NCBI GenBank assembly: GCA_902797435.1
Contig: CADBSV010000005.1
Span: 1 to 63,047 of the forward strand
DNA: 63,047 bases
Direction of reading: 5' to 3'
DNA from: an uncultured Bacteroidia bacterium
GTDB taxonomy: Bacteria > Bacteroidota > Bacteroidia > Bacteroidales > UBA932
The position numbers and the translations under genes were made by a program. The notes beneath the pieces are model-generated. The model was not told the origin of the DNA, made no database searches, and saw only the letters and a list, made by a program, of their open reading frames with translations. Positions 22,177 through 36,316 of this stretch are shown here, piece by piece; the stretch's first letter is position 1; each line of letters starts with the position of its first letter.

Positions 22177-23466
22177 ATGAACGAAGTGTCACAACCGTTG
22201 CCCGAGAGGATGCGCCCGCATAATCTGGATGGATATGTAGGGCAGAAACACCTTGTAGGCAAGGGTTGCATACTCCGCAGCATGATAGAGAACGGCTCTC
22301 TGTCCTCCTTCATACTATGGGGGCCTCCTGGAGTGGGCAAGACTACCCTCGCCCATATAATAGCTGAAACCCTCGACCGGGCCTTCTTTACGCTTTCGGC
22401 AGTAAGCGCCGGGGTGAAGGATGTCCGGGAAGTGATAGAAGCCGCCAAGGGCCGCAACCTTTTCTCCGGCAGCAAGGCTCCGATACTTTTCATTGACGAG
22501 ATACACCGTTTCAACAAGGCTCAGCAGGATGCCCTCCTGGGAGCCGTGGAGGCCGGCACGATAGTCCTTATAGGAGCTACCACTGAGAACCCGAGTTTCG
22601 AGGTGATTACTCCCCTGCTCTCCCGTTGCCAGGTTTTTGTCCTGAAAAGCCTTGACGCGGAAGACCTTGACACACTCCTGCGGCGTGCCATCTCCGAAGA
22701 TGCCGTCCTTAAAACGAAGAATATAAAGGTAGAAGAGACGGAAGCGCTTTTCCGTCAGAGCGGAGGGGATGCCCGGAAGCTTCTCAATATCCTCGAAATC
22801 GTGGTTGACTCCCAGGCGGGTGCGGATGAGATTGTAATTACCAACAAACTTGTAAACGACTGCCTGCAGGAAAACATCGCAATCTACGACAAGGACGGGG
22901 AAATGCATTTCGACCTCATCAGTGCCTTCATCAAGAGCATACGCGGTTCCGACCCCAATGCAGCCATATATTATATGTGCAGGATGCTGGACGGAGGTGA
23001 AGATCCCCTGTTCATAGCAAGGCGCCTCTGCCTGAGTGCTTCCGAAGACGTAGGGCTTGCCAATCCCAACGCCCTGCTTCTTGCTGAGGCGACTTTCCGG
23101 GTAGTGCATGAGATTGGTATGCCCGAGGCCCGCATTCCGCTGGCGGAGTGCACCGTCTATCTGGCTTCTTCACCCAAGAGCAATGCCTCTTATATGGCCA
23201 TGGAGAGGGCGATGGAGGCTGCCAAATCGGACAAGACGGCTGCCGTGCCCCTGTATCTCAGGAACGCCCCTACGAAGTTGATGGAAGACCTCGGATACAG
23301 TGACGGTTACAAATACGCCCACGACTATCCGGGCAATTTCGTTGATTTGGAATTCCTGCCCAAGGGGATGGAAGGCACGGTTTTCTACGAGCCGCAGCAC
23401 AACAGCCATGAAGACCGTTTGCGTGCATATCTGGAGGCCTGCTGGCCAAAGTATTACAAAAAATAG
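22177..23466 (+). CDS. rarA: Replication-associated recombination protein A (RarA/MgsA)
   Basis: A 429-residue AAA+ ATPase of the RarA/MgsA/WRNIP1 family, which acts at stalled replication forks and modulates RecA. Walker A is GPPGVGKTT (49-57), Walker B LFIDEIHRF, and the sensor TTENPSFEV. The C-terminal part carries the family tetramerisation region with HFDLISAFIKSIRGSDPNAA and the late GYKYAHDYPGNFVDLEFLP. The length and N-terminal PLPERMRPHNLDGYVGQKHL are typical. The gene ends right at the promoter of the trp leader, whose -33 box begins about ten bases after the stop codon. Confidence 0.95.
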   Translation: MNEVSQPLPERMRPHNLDGYVGQKHLVGKGCILRSMIENGSLSSFILWGPPGVGKTTLAHIIAETLDRAFFTLSAVSAGVKDVREVIEAAKGRNLFSGSKAPILFIDEIHRFNKAQQDALLGAVEAGTIVLIGATTENPSFEVITPLLSRCQVFVLKSLDAEDLDTLLRRAISEDAVLKTKNIKVEETEALFRQSGGDARKLLNILEIVVDSQAGADEIVITNKLVNDCLQENIAIYDKDGEMHFDLISAFIKSIRGSDPNAAIYYMCRMLDGGEDPLFIARRLCLSASEDVGLANPNALLLAEATFRVVHEIGMPEARIPLAECTVYLASSPKSNASYMAMERAMEAAKSDKTAAVPLYLRNAPTKLMEDLGYSDGYKYAHDYPGNFVDLEFLPKGMEGTVFYEPQHNSHEDRLRAYLEACWPKYYKK

Positions 23467-23474
23467 AGGAAAGT

Positions 23475-23505
23475 CTTGCGCATAAGTTTTTTATCATTAT
23501 ATTTG
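23475..23505 (+). promoter_or_regulatory. Promoter of the trp leader
   Basis: CTTG (23475-23478), 19 bp, TATATTTG (23498-23505). The leader-peptide ATG is nine bases further on. Confidence 0.65.
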
Positions 23506-23514
23506 CAAAAGAAG

Positions 23515-23565
23515 ATGACAAAAAGTACATCATACAGTTCCCTTCGATGGTGGCGTCTGGCATAA
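23515..23565 (+). CDS. trp leader peptide (MTKSTSYSSLRWWRLA)
   Basis: A 16-codon open frame with tandem tryptophan codons TGG TGG at 23548-23553, near its 3' end. It lies between a good promoter and a terminator just ahead of a tryptophan synthase gene. This is the classic layout of a translation-controlled trp attenuator: a ribosome starved for Trp-tRNA would stall at the two codons. Too short for usual gene finders. Confidence 0.85.
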   Translation: MTKSTSYSSLRWWRLA

Positions 23566-23644
23566 TCTTCGGCCAGGCAAAGTATGATGTATAGTGAATA
23601 TATCCCACGGTAGGCTCAGCCCTGCCGAAAGGAAATGAATAGAT

Positions 23645-23680
23645 GCCTGTCCGAATGTGCGGACGGGCGTTTTTGTTTTT
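23645..23680 (+). terminator. Attenuator terminator ahead of trpB2
   Basis: GCCTGTCCG (23645-23653) pairs with CGGACGGGC (23660-23668), nine pairs with one G-T, loop AATGTG, then GTTTTTGTTTTT. It ends 25 nt before the trpB2 ATG. Confidence 0.88.
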
Positions 23681-23704
23681 GATAAACAATTATTTTTCAG
23701 CAAT

Positions 23705-25078
23705 ATGAAACAGAAGAAGTTCCTGCTCCCCGAGAGCGCAATTCCACAGGCATGGTACAACATTCAGGCTGACATGCCGAACAAACCTCTCCCGCTCCTT
23801 CATCCTGGTACCCACAAGCCCCTTGCGGCTGAAGACATGTTCCCGATTTTCTGCGAGGAATGTGCGCGTCAGGAGGTCAACCAGACAGACCGTTTCATTC
23901 CCATTCCGGAACCTGTGCGGGAGAAACTCTCATTCTACCGTTGCACTCCCCTCGTGCGCGCCTATGAACTTGAAAAGGCGCTGGACACCCCGGCCCACAT
24001 TTATTTCAAGAACGAGAGCGTGAGTCCCGTGGGATCGCATAAGCTCAATTCGGCTCTCGCCCAGGCTTATTATGCGAAACAGGAAGGTACGACCAATATT
24101 ACTACAGAGACAGGAGCCGGCCAGTGGGGTGCGGCCCTCTCGTATGCCGCCAAGGCGTTCGGAATCGAGACTGCAGTTTACATGGTAAAGATTTCCTATG
24201 AGCAGAAACCCTATCGCCGCAGCATAATGCAGACTTTCGGAGCCAATGTAACCGCTTCTCCATCAATGAGTACGCGTGCAGGTAAGGATGTCATCACGAG
24301 GGATCCCAACAACCAGGGGTCGCTGGGTACTGCAATATCCGAGGCCCTTGAACTTGCGCAGAATACGCCTCATTGCAAGTATGTGCTGGGTTCAGTGCTG
24401 AATCATGTGTGTCTGCACCAGACTGTAATCGGACTTGAAGCCGAGAAACAGATGGAAATGGCGGACGAGTATCCCGACATCGTAATCGGATGCTTCGGAG
24501 GAGGGAGCAATTTCAGCGGAATCGCGTTCCCCTTCCTCAGGCACAATATCCTTGAGGGGAAAAAGACCCGTTTCATCGCTGCAGAGCCTGCGTCCTGCCC
24601 TAAACTGACCAAAGGCGTGTATCTTTACGATTTCGGTGATGTAGCAGGATACACTCCCCTTCTGGCAATGTACACCCTTGGTCATACCTTCATGCCGGCA
24701 AACATCCATGCCGGAGGCCTCCGCTATCATGGTGCAGGCAGCATTATCTCCCAGCTCCTTAAAGACGGTTATATCGAGGCAGTGGACATAGATCAGCTGA
24801 CATCCTTTGACGCAGCGGCTTTGTTTGCGCGTACGGAGGGTATAATTCCCGCTCCGGAGAGCTCTCATGCCATTGCCGCAACCATCGCGGAAGCCCTTAA
24901 ATGCAAGGAGACGGGAGAAAAGAAGACAATACTGTTCAACCTCTCGGGGCACGGCCTCATCGACATGAGTGCATACGACAAATTCTTTGCCGGTGACCTG
25001 GTAGGTGGAGGAGTGAGCGACGAACAGATCGCCCGTACCCTCAAGGAAAGCGGTCTGGATCCTTCAAAGCCTCTCTGA
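23705..25078 (+). CDS. trpB: Tryptophan synthase beta chain, TrpB2 type
   Basis: A 457-residue fold-type II PLP enzyme of the stand-alone TrpB2 group, which condenses indole with serine to tryptophan. The cofactor lysine is Lys113 in SPVGSHKLNSA, followed by TTETGAGQWGAAL and the phosphate cup CFGGGSNFSG; TrpB2 proteins are longer than TrpB1 (about 400), as here. No trpA or other trp gene is adjacent, so it may salvage indole. I start at the ATG at 23705; an earlier in-frame start would lie inside the terminator. Expression is evidently controlled by the attenuator upstream. A terminator hairpin follows. Confidence 0.93.
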   Translation: MKQKKFLLPESAIPQAWYNIQADMPNKPLPLLHPGTHKPLAAEDMFPIFCEECARQEVNQTDRFIPIPEPVREKLSFYRCTPLVRAYELEKALDTPAHIYFKNESVSPVGSHKLNSALAQAYYAKQEGTTNITTETGAGQWGAALSYAAKAFGIETAVYMVKISYEQKPYRRSIMQTFGANVTASPSMSTRAGKDVITRDPNNQGSLGTAISEALELAQNTPHCKYVLGSVLNHVCLHQTVIGLEAEKQMEMADEYPDIVIGCFGGGSNFSGIAFPFLRHNILEGKKTRFIAAEPASCPKLTKGVYLYDFGDVAGYTPLLAMYTLGHTFMPANIHAGGLRYHGAGSIISQLLKDGYIEAVDIDQLTSFDAAALFARTEGIIPAPESSHAIAATIAEALKCKETGEKKTILFNLSGHGLIDMSAYDKFFAGDLVGGGVSDEQIARTLKESGLDPSKPL

Positions 25079-25112: not shown

Positions 25113-25148
25113 GCGCGCGATTACTATAATTAGTGATTGCGCGCTTTT
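25113..25148 (+). terminator. Intrinsic terminator after trpB2
   Basis: GCGCGCGATTACT (25113-25125) pairs with AGTGATTGCGCGC (25132-25144), 13 pairs including G-T, loop ATAATT, followed by TTTT (25145-25148). Its 3' arm also contains the ATTG that would be the -33 box of the next promoter. Confidence 0.75.
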
Positions 25149-35044: not shown

Positions 35045-36316
35045 CTACAAATGTAGTAAAATTTCCTTTACGCCTGCGTCCCATGGGGCTGCGCAGAGCT
35101 TTATACGTGAGGGAAGAGCTCTGCCGCAGGCTTCGCTGAGTTCGCAGGGAAGATTGAGGACTACCTCGGCGGGAGTATCGCTGAAATTGCACAGTACCAC
35201 CCAGGCTGAGTCTTCGCAGTACCGGACAAAAGCGCTGTGGAGCGAAGGATCGAATCCGCCGGCGCTTCCATTGCAGTAGCATAAATCCCAGTTCGGAAGG
35301 GCCTGGATTCTGGATGCGAGACGCAGGATGCTCCTGTATTTTTTCAGTACGGGGTTGCCTGCATGCGGCAGAGCTGTGTTCTGGAGGCTTGCGATGCGGA
35401 CGTAGTTGAAAATCGATGTCCTTCCGTCGGAGGCTTCGGAAGCGGTTTCGCCGAGTTCCTGCCCTGCGTAAATCATAAAGGAGGCCTTGTTGAAAAGCGC
35501 ACCGTAGGCAAGGGCGGCGTATCCTTTTTGGGGAGAACCGGCAAAGCACCTGCTGGCAAGGCGCTGCTCGTCGTGATTTTCAAGAAAATTCAGCATCCCT
35601 TCCTGCATATCCCCCAGCCACTGCCAGTTTGCAGTCAGCTCCCGGGGAGTTCTTCTCCCCTCGATGATTCCCCTGGAGATATCGTAAAAGCCGGATTTGT
35701 CGTACAGGAGGTCGAATCCCGTTTCCTTCAGAAGAGGGCGGTAATTGGCTTTGTCATAGGCTTCCGCTATGAAAAGGAAGCCCGGATATTCCCTTCGGAC
35801 TTCGCTTATGAGGTAGCGGAGGACTTCTTTCGGAACGAGTTCCACCATGTCGCAGCGAAACCCGTCAACTCCAAGTCCAGCCCAGAAAAGGGCTATGCGT
35901 CGCATCCCTTCCCATGCTTCAGGATTGGAATAGTCTATTTTACGTGTATCCGTCCAGTCGTAATCGCACCAAGGCAGGGTGGGAACATCTGTGCAGTCGG
36001 GGCTGACATGGTTTGGAACAAGGTCCGTTATTACCTTGAAACCTGCTTTGTGACAGCGTTTTACAAGTGCTGCAAATTCATCTGTGCGCTTCTCGGGATT
36101 GTCTGCAAGATAGGGGTTTACGTCAAAATACGACGATATCGAATAAGGCGAACCAGGGTCGCCCTTTACATAATCCTTTCCGCTTGAATGCCTTGGAATA
36201 CCGGTGAACCAGATGGTATCGACTCCAAGCGAAGAGAGGTATTTGAAAGCAGGGGTCTTCCAGTCGGAAAAACGTCCGCTGCCCCATAGCCTTGGAAGCA
36301 CCTGATAGATTATCAT
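35045..36316 (-). CDS. GH13 alpha-amylase family enzyme, cytoplasmic
   Basis: A 423-residue glycoside hydrolase family 13 protein with all four conserved regions: DLVPNHV, GFRCDMVEL (nucleophile Asp156), FIAEAY (acid/base Glu185) and FLENHDEQR (Asp249). No signal peptide is seen, so it should act on intracellular alpha-glucans or oligosaccharides. The C-terminal beta domain is short. It lacks the calcium-site and starch-binding extensions of secreted SusG-type amylases. It overlaps trmH by 4 nt and precedes tamL by 3 nt. Substrate and product cannot be told from sequence. Confidence 0.9.
   Translation of the reverse strand: MIIYQVLPRLWGSGRFSDWKTPAFKYLSSLGVDTIWFTGIPRHSSGKDYVKGDPGSPYSISSYFDVNPYLADNPEKRTDEFAALVKRCHKAGFKVITDLVPNHVSPDCTDVPTLPWCDYDWTDTRKIDYSNPEAWEGMRRIALFWAGLGVDGFRCDMVELVPKEVLRYLISEVRREYPGFLFIAEAYDKANYRPLLKETGFDLLYDKSGFYDISRGIIEGRRTPRELTANWQWLGDMQEGMLNFLENHDEQRLASRCFAGSPQKGYAALAYGALFNKASFMIYAGQELGETASEASDGRTSIFNYVRIASLQNTALPHAGNPVLKKYRSILRLASRIQALPNWDLCYCNGSAGGFDPSLHSAFVRYCEDSAWVVLCNFSDTPAEVVLNLPCELSEACGRALPSRIKLCAAPWDAGVKEILLHL

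Follow-up and report, generated by a model that had tools for sequence, protein, structure and literature searches.

The window analysed here (i.e. the whole 63,047-nucleotide (nt) stretch of contig CADBSV010000005.1 from an uncultured Bacteroidia bacterium of the Bacteroidales, UBA932) contains a gene for a stand-alone TrpB2-type tryptophan synthase beta chain (trpB2; 457 aa; 23705-25078) that is preceded by a compact leader region at 23476-23679, all features being on the forward strand. Direct reading of the sequence located the promoter, 16-codon leader, tandem TGG codons, internal stem and terminator that had been put forward in the original prediction. The Bacteroidota sigma-A type promoter (23476-23505) consists of a TTG at 23476-23478, 19 nt and a -7 box (TATATTTG) at 23498-23505. 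The leader peptide open reading frame (ORF) of 16 codons (MTKSTSYSSLRWWRLA; 23515-23565) runs from an ATG at 23515 to a TAA stop codon at 23563-23565 and contains the codons TGG TGG at 23548-23553, the presumed stall site. Downstream of these codons, a 1:2 (anti-antiterminator) hairpin (23555-23578) is formed by 7 bp, including one G-U, between 23555-23561 and 23572-23578. Strand 2, the 5' arm of the antiterminator (TTCGGCCAGGCA; 23568-23579), begins 3 nt past the leader stop codon, and strand 3, the 3' arm (TGCCTGTCCGAA; 23644-23655), overlaps the 5' arm of an intrinsic terminator (23641-23679; stem 23641-23653/23660-23672, with a T-rich tail after it). Strands 2 and 3 are paired at 11 of 12 positions with a single C.U mismatch; the CAGGCA/TGCCTG antiterminator suggested earlier is present within this pairing, its 6 bp having been too short a description.

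The folding energies of the 1:2 hairpin (-9.8 kcal/mol) and of the leader terminator (-21.1 kcal/mol) were each equalled by 0 of 200 shuffles, and the 150-nt stretch at 23515-23664 gave a fold of -46.6 (z -2.49) which 2 of 200 shuffles equalled or bettered. For the window's best complement to the terminator the shuffle p was 0.025, in an alignment that includes strand 1 versus strand 4. A simple terminator scan also picked up the leader terminator, a listing of little weight because 6 sites were obtained in 4.5 kb as compared to 4.5 in shuffles. The minimum free energy (MFE) fold of 23515-23664 includes an enclosing stem (23526-23591; arms 23526-23535 and 23582-23591) of 10 perfect pairs with a shuffle p of 0.005. 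A linker hairpin (CGGTAGG/CCTGCCG; 23608-23627) of 7 bp with a 6-nt loop was also seen in the MFE fold, between strand 2 and the terminator.

Profile scores identified the downstream gene. Its product scored 592.2 bits against TIGR01415 (cut-off 518.85) and 692 bits against NF009057 (cut-off 366) but only 146.6 bits, below the cut-off of 392.45, against the canonical trpB family TIGR00263, bearing out the assignment to the TrpB2 type; the top three PDB matches include two chains that bear the name 'Tryptophan synthase beta chain 2'. With TrpB2, a Trp-synthesis gene lies downstream of the leader. A strong terminator at 25113-25144 (-23.7 kcal/mol, equalled by 0 of 200 shuffles), which the simple scan picked up as well, closes what is predicted to be a transcription unit one gene long.

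Conservation of the leader was examined in a named-genome set comprising the best 80 of at least 594 confirmed TrpB2 relatives, obtained by a scan of genome contigs, and in 29 fetched loci of the same genus; the nearest named trpB2 loci were from Bacteroidales. Leaders were defined as ATG-started ORFs of at most 32 codons with tandem Trp codons (WW) in the 420 nt upstream of trpB2. A WW or WWW leader was found at 37 of the 80 named-genome loci and 22 of the 29 same-genus loci, which with the window's own amounts to 60 of 110 upstream regions. Random 420-nt windows from the loci of the 80 relatives contained a WW ORF in 49 of 2787 cases, and a WW ORF with TTTG at most 20 nt upstream in 8 of 2787 as compared to 51 of the 60 leaders. 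Merging of identical upstream regions left 57 distinct leaders, the window's included, and a terminator passed the scan in 54 of these (L038, L050 and L069 failed). Complementarity reached a shuffle p of ≤0.05 in an ungapped test for 2:3 in 37 and for 1:2 in 40 of these 54 leaders, and in 45 the leader stop codon ended at most 5 nt upstream or 10 nt downstream of the point at which strand 2 begins. The ungapped test was used instead of an earlier gapped duplex test of 2:3 (29 of 48 at p ≤0.05), which spanned long gapped stretches; for the window, strand 2 was merged into strand 1 and there is no 1:2 p-value from it. The perfect enclosing stem, a correct element of the original prediction for the window itself, was not widely conserved and was unsupported as a family feature (p ≤0.05 in 6 of 54 leaders, window included, by the ungapped test). 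The peptide outside WW/WWW varied among relatives while WW/WWW persisted.

Some loci of these sets had further features. Six trpB2 genes without a WW leader (L007, L020, L024, L027, L036 and L046) were seen by eye to lie directly behind an SdhC/FrdC-like membrane-subunit ORF, with a terminator-like stretch immediately before trpB2. A SAM-II riboswitch (Rfam; 55.9 bits) was present at L023:1377-1443 in a rumen Bacteroidales, ~1.6 kb upstream of trpB2, and a same-genus genome (G086; C15:46067-46936) contained a trpB2 fragment with an internal TGA, possibly a broken copy.

Covariation was examined in two plain MAFFT alignments, A1 with 11 of the 57 leaders, all of the window's strand type (window included), and A2 with 31 leaders of another type, 15 leaders being in neither. 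TGGTGG was invariant in both A1 (11 rows) and A2 (31 rows), all rows having been preselected for a WW leader. The proportion of cells paired in A1 was 85.5% for 1:2, 92.9% for 3:4, 89.7% for 1:2 and 3:4 together and 82.6% for 2:3, and in A2 was 86.3% for 1:2 and 3:4 together and 92.7% for 2:3, as compared to at most 48.6% in slid controls. Percentage paired and covariation score were matched by 0-5 of 500 column shuffles and were above every slid control; these figures are not probabilities, as the alignments were plain and the rows related. Loss of the Trp codons or stems in relatives had been set beforehand as the result that would overturn the proposal; the codons and the 1:2, 2:3 and 3:4 pairings were found to be kept and to covary.

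An alignment of relatives, which had been suggested as a check, also yielded a covariance model that finds the element. Nine leaders (A4), with the window and its nearest relative, L001, held out, were used to make this model (R2), which detected the window element at 23539-23676 with 34.8 bits and an E-value of 2.7e-6, placing it within the modelled family, and L001 with an E-value of 9.2e-6. In a search of its own genome, the window element ranked first (E 7.5e-5) and the second match had an E of 0.036; by eye, this second match was a tRNA plus terminator and the following two lay on opposite strands of a single plain terminator region. A bare TTTG-ATG-TGGTGG pattern occurred at 31 places in this genome as compared to 22 for a reversed-pattern control.

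The consequences of ribosome position for the alternative pairings were modelled by folding RNAs cut after the terminator loop with a ribosome (assumed footprint 14 nt) at the first or second Trp codon, at the stop codon or absent. The mean probability of upstream pairing by strand 3 was 0.71 with a stall at the Trp codons, 0.29 with a ribosome at the stop codon and 0.27 without a ribosome, with stall exceeding stop in 54 of 54 leaders and exceeding no ribosome in 51 of 54. The stall minus none difference was 0.44 as compared to -0.04 for shuffled strands, and the stall minus stop difference was 0.42 as compared to 0.09; none of 12 shuffles reached the real value in 41 and 27 of the 54 leaders, respectively. 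In silico, the window has 1:2, 2:3 and 3:4 pairings that exclude one another, together with an intrinsic terminator and a short ORF with tandem Trp codons that is predicted to be translated.

Of the 57 distinct leaders, 53 had a recognisable -7-type box 0-25 nt upstream of the leader ATG (17 as strict TAnnTTTG, the others in relaxed forms) and 46 had a TTG at 17-22 nt spacing; the box ended 6-9 nt before the ATG in 44 of the 53. As the box is placed at -12 to -5 in the accessible part of a Flavobacterium paper (PMC9723704), the window's transcript would be predicted to start near 23510 with a 5' leader of ~5 nt. In most relatives with a box the predicted length was 3-4 nt, so that the 5' leader of a few nucleotides originally suggested for the window would be a lineage-wide property. 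Such leaders of <10 nt are rare in B. thetaiotaomicron (about 3.7%) according to the accessible text of PMC7366714. Among 50 trpB2 genes without a WW leader, 34 had a box in the 90 nt before the ATG, at a median distance of 31.5 nt. Of 51 WW leaders that precede trpB1 or another trp gene, 40 had a box within 28 nt, the median distance being 20 nt; in seven, six of which are from the window's family, the box was at 5-10 nt. On the basis of this 20-nt median, the idea that trp leaders in general have a near-leaderless start was rejected. The near-leaderless form looks, from these box positions, like a trait of the window's lineage.

Region 23476-23679 is very probably a ribosome-mediated tryptophan attenuator similar in kind to E. 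coli trpL, with trpB2 as the only gene under its control. Transcription from near 23510 would allow a ribosome to load on an almost 5'-terminal AUG. When charged tRNA-Trp is ample, the ribosome would pass the WW codons, reach the stop codon at 23563 and cover strand 2 (23568-23579), whereupon the terminator (23641-23672) would form and transcription would end. When Trp-tRNA is short, the ribosome would halt at 23548-23553 and mask strand 1 (23555-23561), leaving strand 2 to pair with strand 3 (23644-23655), so that the terminator would be blocked and trpB2 made. TrpB2 would then condense serine with indole, which would most likely come from other microbes because the cell seems to be without an indole-making pathway.

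The logic of alternating 1:2, 2:3 and 3:4 pairings is that of E. coli trpL, which also shares with the window element a short leader, tandem Trp codons and a stop codon beside strand 2. The window element differs in its phylum and promoter, in a predicted 5' leader of ~5 nt, in having strand 1 downstream of the Trp codons and in having trpB2 as its sole target gene. The corresponding Rfam family, RF00513 (Trp_leader), had no match in the window at its membership score of 41 bits, but came near this gathering value, while staying below it, in three of nine trpB2 leader loci (L015, L044 and L056; 36.7, 35 and 27 bits). In the accessible text of PMC11857589, the leader peptide of the Corynebacterium glutamicum ilvBNC attenuator is discussed in connection with leaderless-mRNA translation and in this respect resembles the window element; that system is actinobacterial and serves other amino acids, and the window's start site is a prediction. 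Within the phylum, strong clues for leader-peptide attenuation ahead of amino-acid operons are described for Flavobacterium psychrophilum in the accessible part of PMC9723704, and PMC6414381, as far as accessible, compares Bacteroid-trp with the E. coli trp leader and mentions Flavobacterium leader-peptide attenuation; the accessible text of both concerns biosynthetic operons and does not name trpB2.

Related leaders were found on other trp genes. Of 20 trp operons examined, 18 had a WW leader before trpB1 (7 of 8 operons from the genus and 11 of 12 from elsewhere); a ninth genus region (G075) that showed neither was dropped, and 24 trpC genomes were outside this operon count. A second covariance model (R1), made from 31 A2-type trpB2 leaders with the window's type excluded, gave 83 matches in 78 of 247 genomes across the order and none in the window's own genome. 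Of these matches, 70 were fetched and 13 weaker ones left. The fetched loci had a WW leader before trpB1 in 30 cases, before trpB2 in three and before something else in 28; one further locus was a trpB2 without a detected WW ORF and eight had neither. Ten of the 28 others were typed, nine having trpE as best match (below the model cut-off) and one trpD. At two loci pairs of Prevotellaceae/Bacteroidaceae genomes (L204 with L008, L205 with L038), trpB1 and trpB2 of one genome carry look-alike WWW leaders, as though one leader were a copy of the other.

The known class in this phylum is RF01692 (Bacteroid-trp), described by Rfam as 'Bacteroidete tryptophan peptide leader RNA' and listed by Weinberg 2010 as a cis-regulatory RNA, the accessible main text being without the term 'leader peptide' (PMC2864571). 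Among 20 R1-found loci, six matched RF01692 at E ≤0.1, four of them above gathering and all on trpB1, while the five trpE, four trpB2 and one trpD loci of the same search had no match. In 59 genomes of the window's family, six RF01692 matches were obtained at E ≤0.001 (two at gathering score); all six had a WW/WWW leader with a trpB1-like ORF after it, and all were recovered by R1 (E 9.6e-9 to 2.7e-6), a model made from trpB2 leaders only. Conversely, RF01692 had no gathering-level match in 20 WW trpB2 loci and no match at E ≤1 in nine trpB2 loci, six of which were shared with that set of 20. The window element resembles RF01692 in lying upstream of a trp gene in Bacteroidota and in its WW leader, and differs in serving a lone trpB2 rather than a trp operon. 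On these sequence comparisons it belongs to a group of Bacteroidales WW-leader trp attenuators that precede trpB1, trpE, trpD or trpB2, of which RF01692 covers a part that excludes the window's.

The tryptophan pathway context was examined in the window's own genome and in its genus. No trpA or trpC match was found in the own genome (80% complete), which together with the strong terminator behind trpB2 fits the earlier description of the locus as not a full trp operon. Across 61 genus genomes, own included, trpA was above cut-off in 8 and trpC in 8, both remaining below it in the other 53, a distribution that also fits; among the 25 genomes of ≥90% completeness, trpC was present in 3 and trpA in 4 at E ≤0.001, one being below cut-off. 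The TrpB2 query was matched in 53 of the 61 genomes, at least one of these being only a distant canonical-type match. The lack of trpA and trpC in the own genome suggests that indole salvage is likely to be the regulated step. Gut genomes retaining only TrpAB are taken to use indole precursors in the accessible text of PMC9026213.

Leader carriage went together with absence of trpC. In named genomes, 32 leader carriers were without and 5 with trpC, as compared to 12 and 31 of the leaderless loci, and the corresponding genus counts were 21 and 1 as compared to 2 and 5. For all 110 loci, trpC was absent in 54 of 60 leader carriers and 14 of 50 leaderless loci (Fisher 1.2e-11), a set that includes near-copies and in which some absences may be false because of incomplete assemblies. 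The distribution of the leader on the TrpB2 tree calls for 12 or more changes, of which well supported branches force 6. Independent pairs on this tree showed on average 2.2 same, 0.3 opposite and 3.4 no-difference outcomes, and the association was not significant after correction for phylogeny (median p 0.5). Exclusivity is contradicted by six trpB2 loci that carry the leader despite trpC (L008, L035, L038, L059, L069 and L132) and by two with neither (L145, from a genome 99% complete, and L141).

These data bear on whether the attenuator is real but TrpB2 serves serine deamination or some other use instead of making Trp from indole. TrpB2 enzymes have been discussed with other roles, and no TrpA partner was found in the own genome. 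Set against this, a Trp-codon attenuator ahead of trpB2 ties the gene to Trp supply, related leaders lie ahead of trpB1, trpE and trpD, and the leader occurs on trpB2 in 21 of 23 genus genomes without trpC but in 1 of 6 with it; this alternative is considered unlikely.

Less probable still, with only a slight chance in our estimation, is a conserved trp leader terminator that is sensed otherwise (i.e. by tRNA, a protein or Trp itself), with the WW ORF incidental or structural. Sensing by a ribosome is not proven by an intrinsic terminator with an alternative pairing alone, a ribosome-free fold could make use of the window's perfect enclosing stem, and preselection of leaders for an open WW frame biases the apparent conservation of that frame. 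However, WW/WWW was kept while the remaining peptide changed, 45 of 54 leaders have their stop codon next to strand 2, as a ribosome model requires, and Rfam calls the related class RF01692 a tryptophan peptide leader. The one gathering-level Rfam match in the window was a tRNA; at 23300-23900 all matches were at chance level, and there was neither a riboswitch nor a T-box among the window's matches. A chance placement of a random WW ORF close to an ordinary terminator is scarcely credible: WW ORFs do occur in random windows at the rate given above and terminator-like sites are not rare, but promoter, ORF and hairpins are kept in many relatives with Trp codons and pairings conserved, and the window is detected by the held-out covariance model (E 2.7e-6).

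Several observations weigh against ribosome-mediated attenuation of trpB2, which is predicted here from sequence and folding. No WW leader was detected before trpB2 at 43 of the 80 named-genome and 7 of the 29 same-genus loci. The antiterminator mismatch column (A1 columns 90/167) was unpaired in 9 of 11 rows between invariant neighbours, for which double duty in the 1:2 hairpin is the only explanation that we can offer. Double-changed pairs were matched by 129 and 86 (A1) and by 0 and 37 (A2) of 500 shuffles and pair types by 119 and 26 (A1) and by 41 and 68 (A2), and for 2:3 in A2 one slid control had more double-changed cells than the structure (11 vs 9). In the modelled ribosome states, the window itself gave upstream pairing probabilities of 0.51 (stall), 0.28 (stop) and 0.21 (none), a contrast below the family mean, with shuffle p-values of 0.01 for stall minus none, 0.11 for stall minus stop and 0.39 for stall alone. 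Model R1 had no match to the window element at E ≤1, its sole match in the window being at 35715 (E 0.71), which suggests that the window's is a divergent member. The search with the Bacteroid-trp covariance model that had been proposed as a check left the window unmatched (E ≤5 locally and E ≤10 genome-wide, the membership score being 49 bits). Lastly, the absences of trp genes from the own genome may be assembly gaps at 80% completeness.

In the literature on Bacteroidota trp attenuation, TrpB2 and stand-alone TrpB, as far as accessible and with subscription papers mostly outside it, no attenuator ahead of trpB2 was found. A marine survey of trp genes argues, in its accessible text, that attenuation is superfluous for detached trp genes (PMC2395257); in contrast to that argument, the detached trpB2 described here keeps attenuation. 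Ribosome-read switches of this type normally stand on whole tryptophan operons and here one precedes a single indole-to-tryptophan enzyme, which broadens the known trp leader class of Bacteroidota by a gene and a range of sequences missed by Rfam. A conserved, nearly 5'-terminal leader peptide offers a system for Shine-Dalgarno-free translation start. To our knowledge, the role of TrpB2 in cells without TrpA and the rest of the pathway is not settled, and a conserved Trp-codon attenuator ahead of TrpB2 is evidence, at the level of regulation, for the importance of its product to Trp supply. More tentatively, and with somewhat less than even confidence, the Bacteroidales Trp attenuator may be a mobile control cassette that tracks whichever step makes Trp in the cell, sitting on trpB1, trpE or trpD where there is a pathway and on a lone TrpB2 where the pathway is gone. 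In the window's lineage its leader peptide would be started on an almost leaderless mRNA, such that a sensor of charged tRNA, recognisable from the genome sequence, would meter the use of indole supplied by the community.

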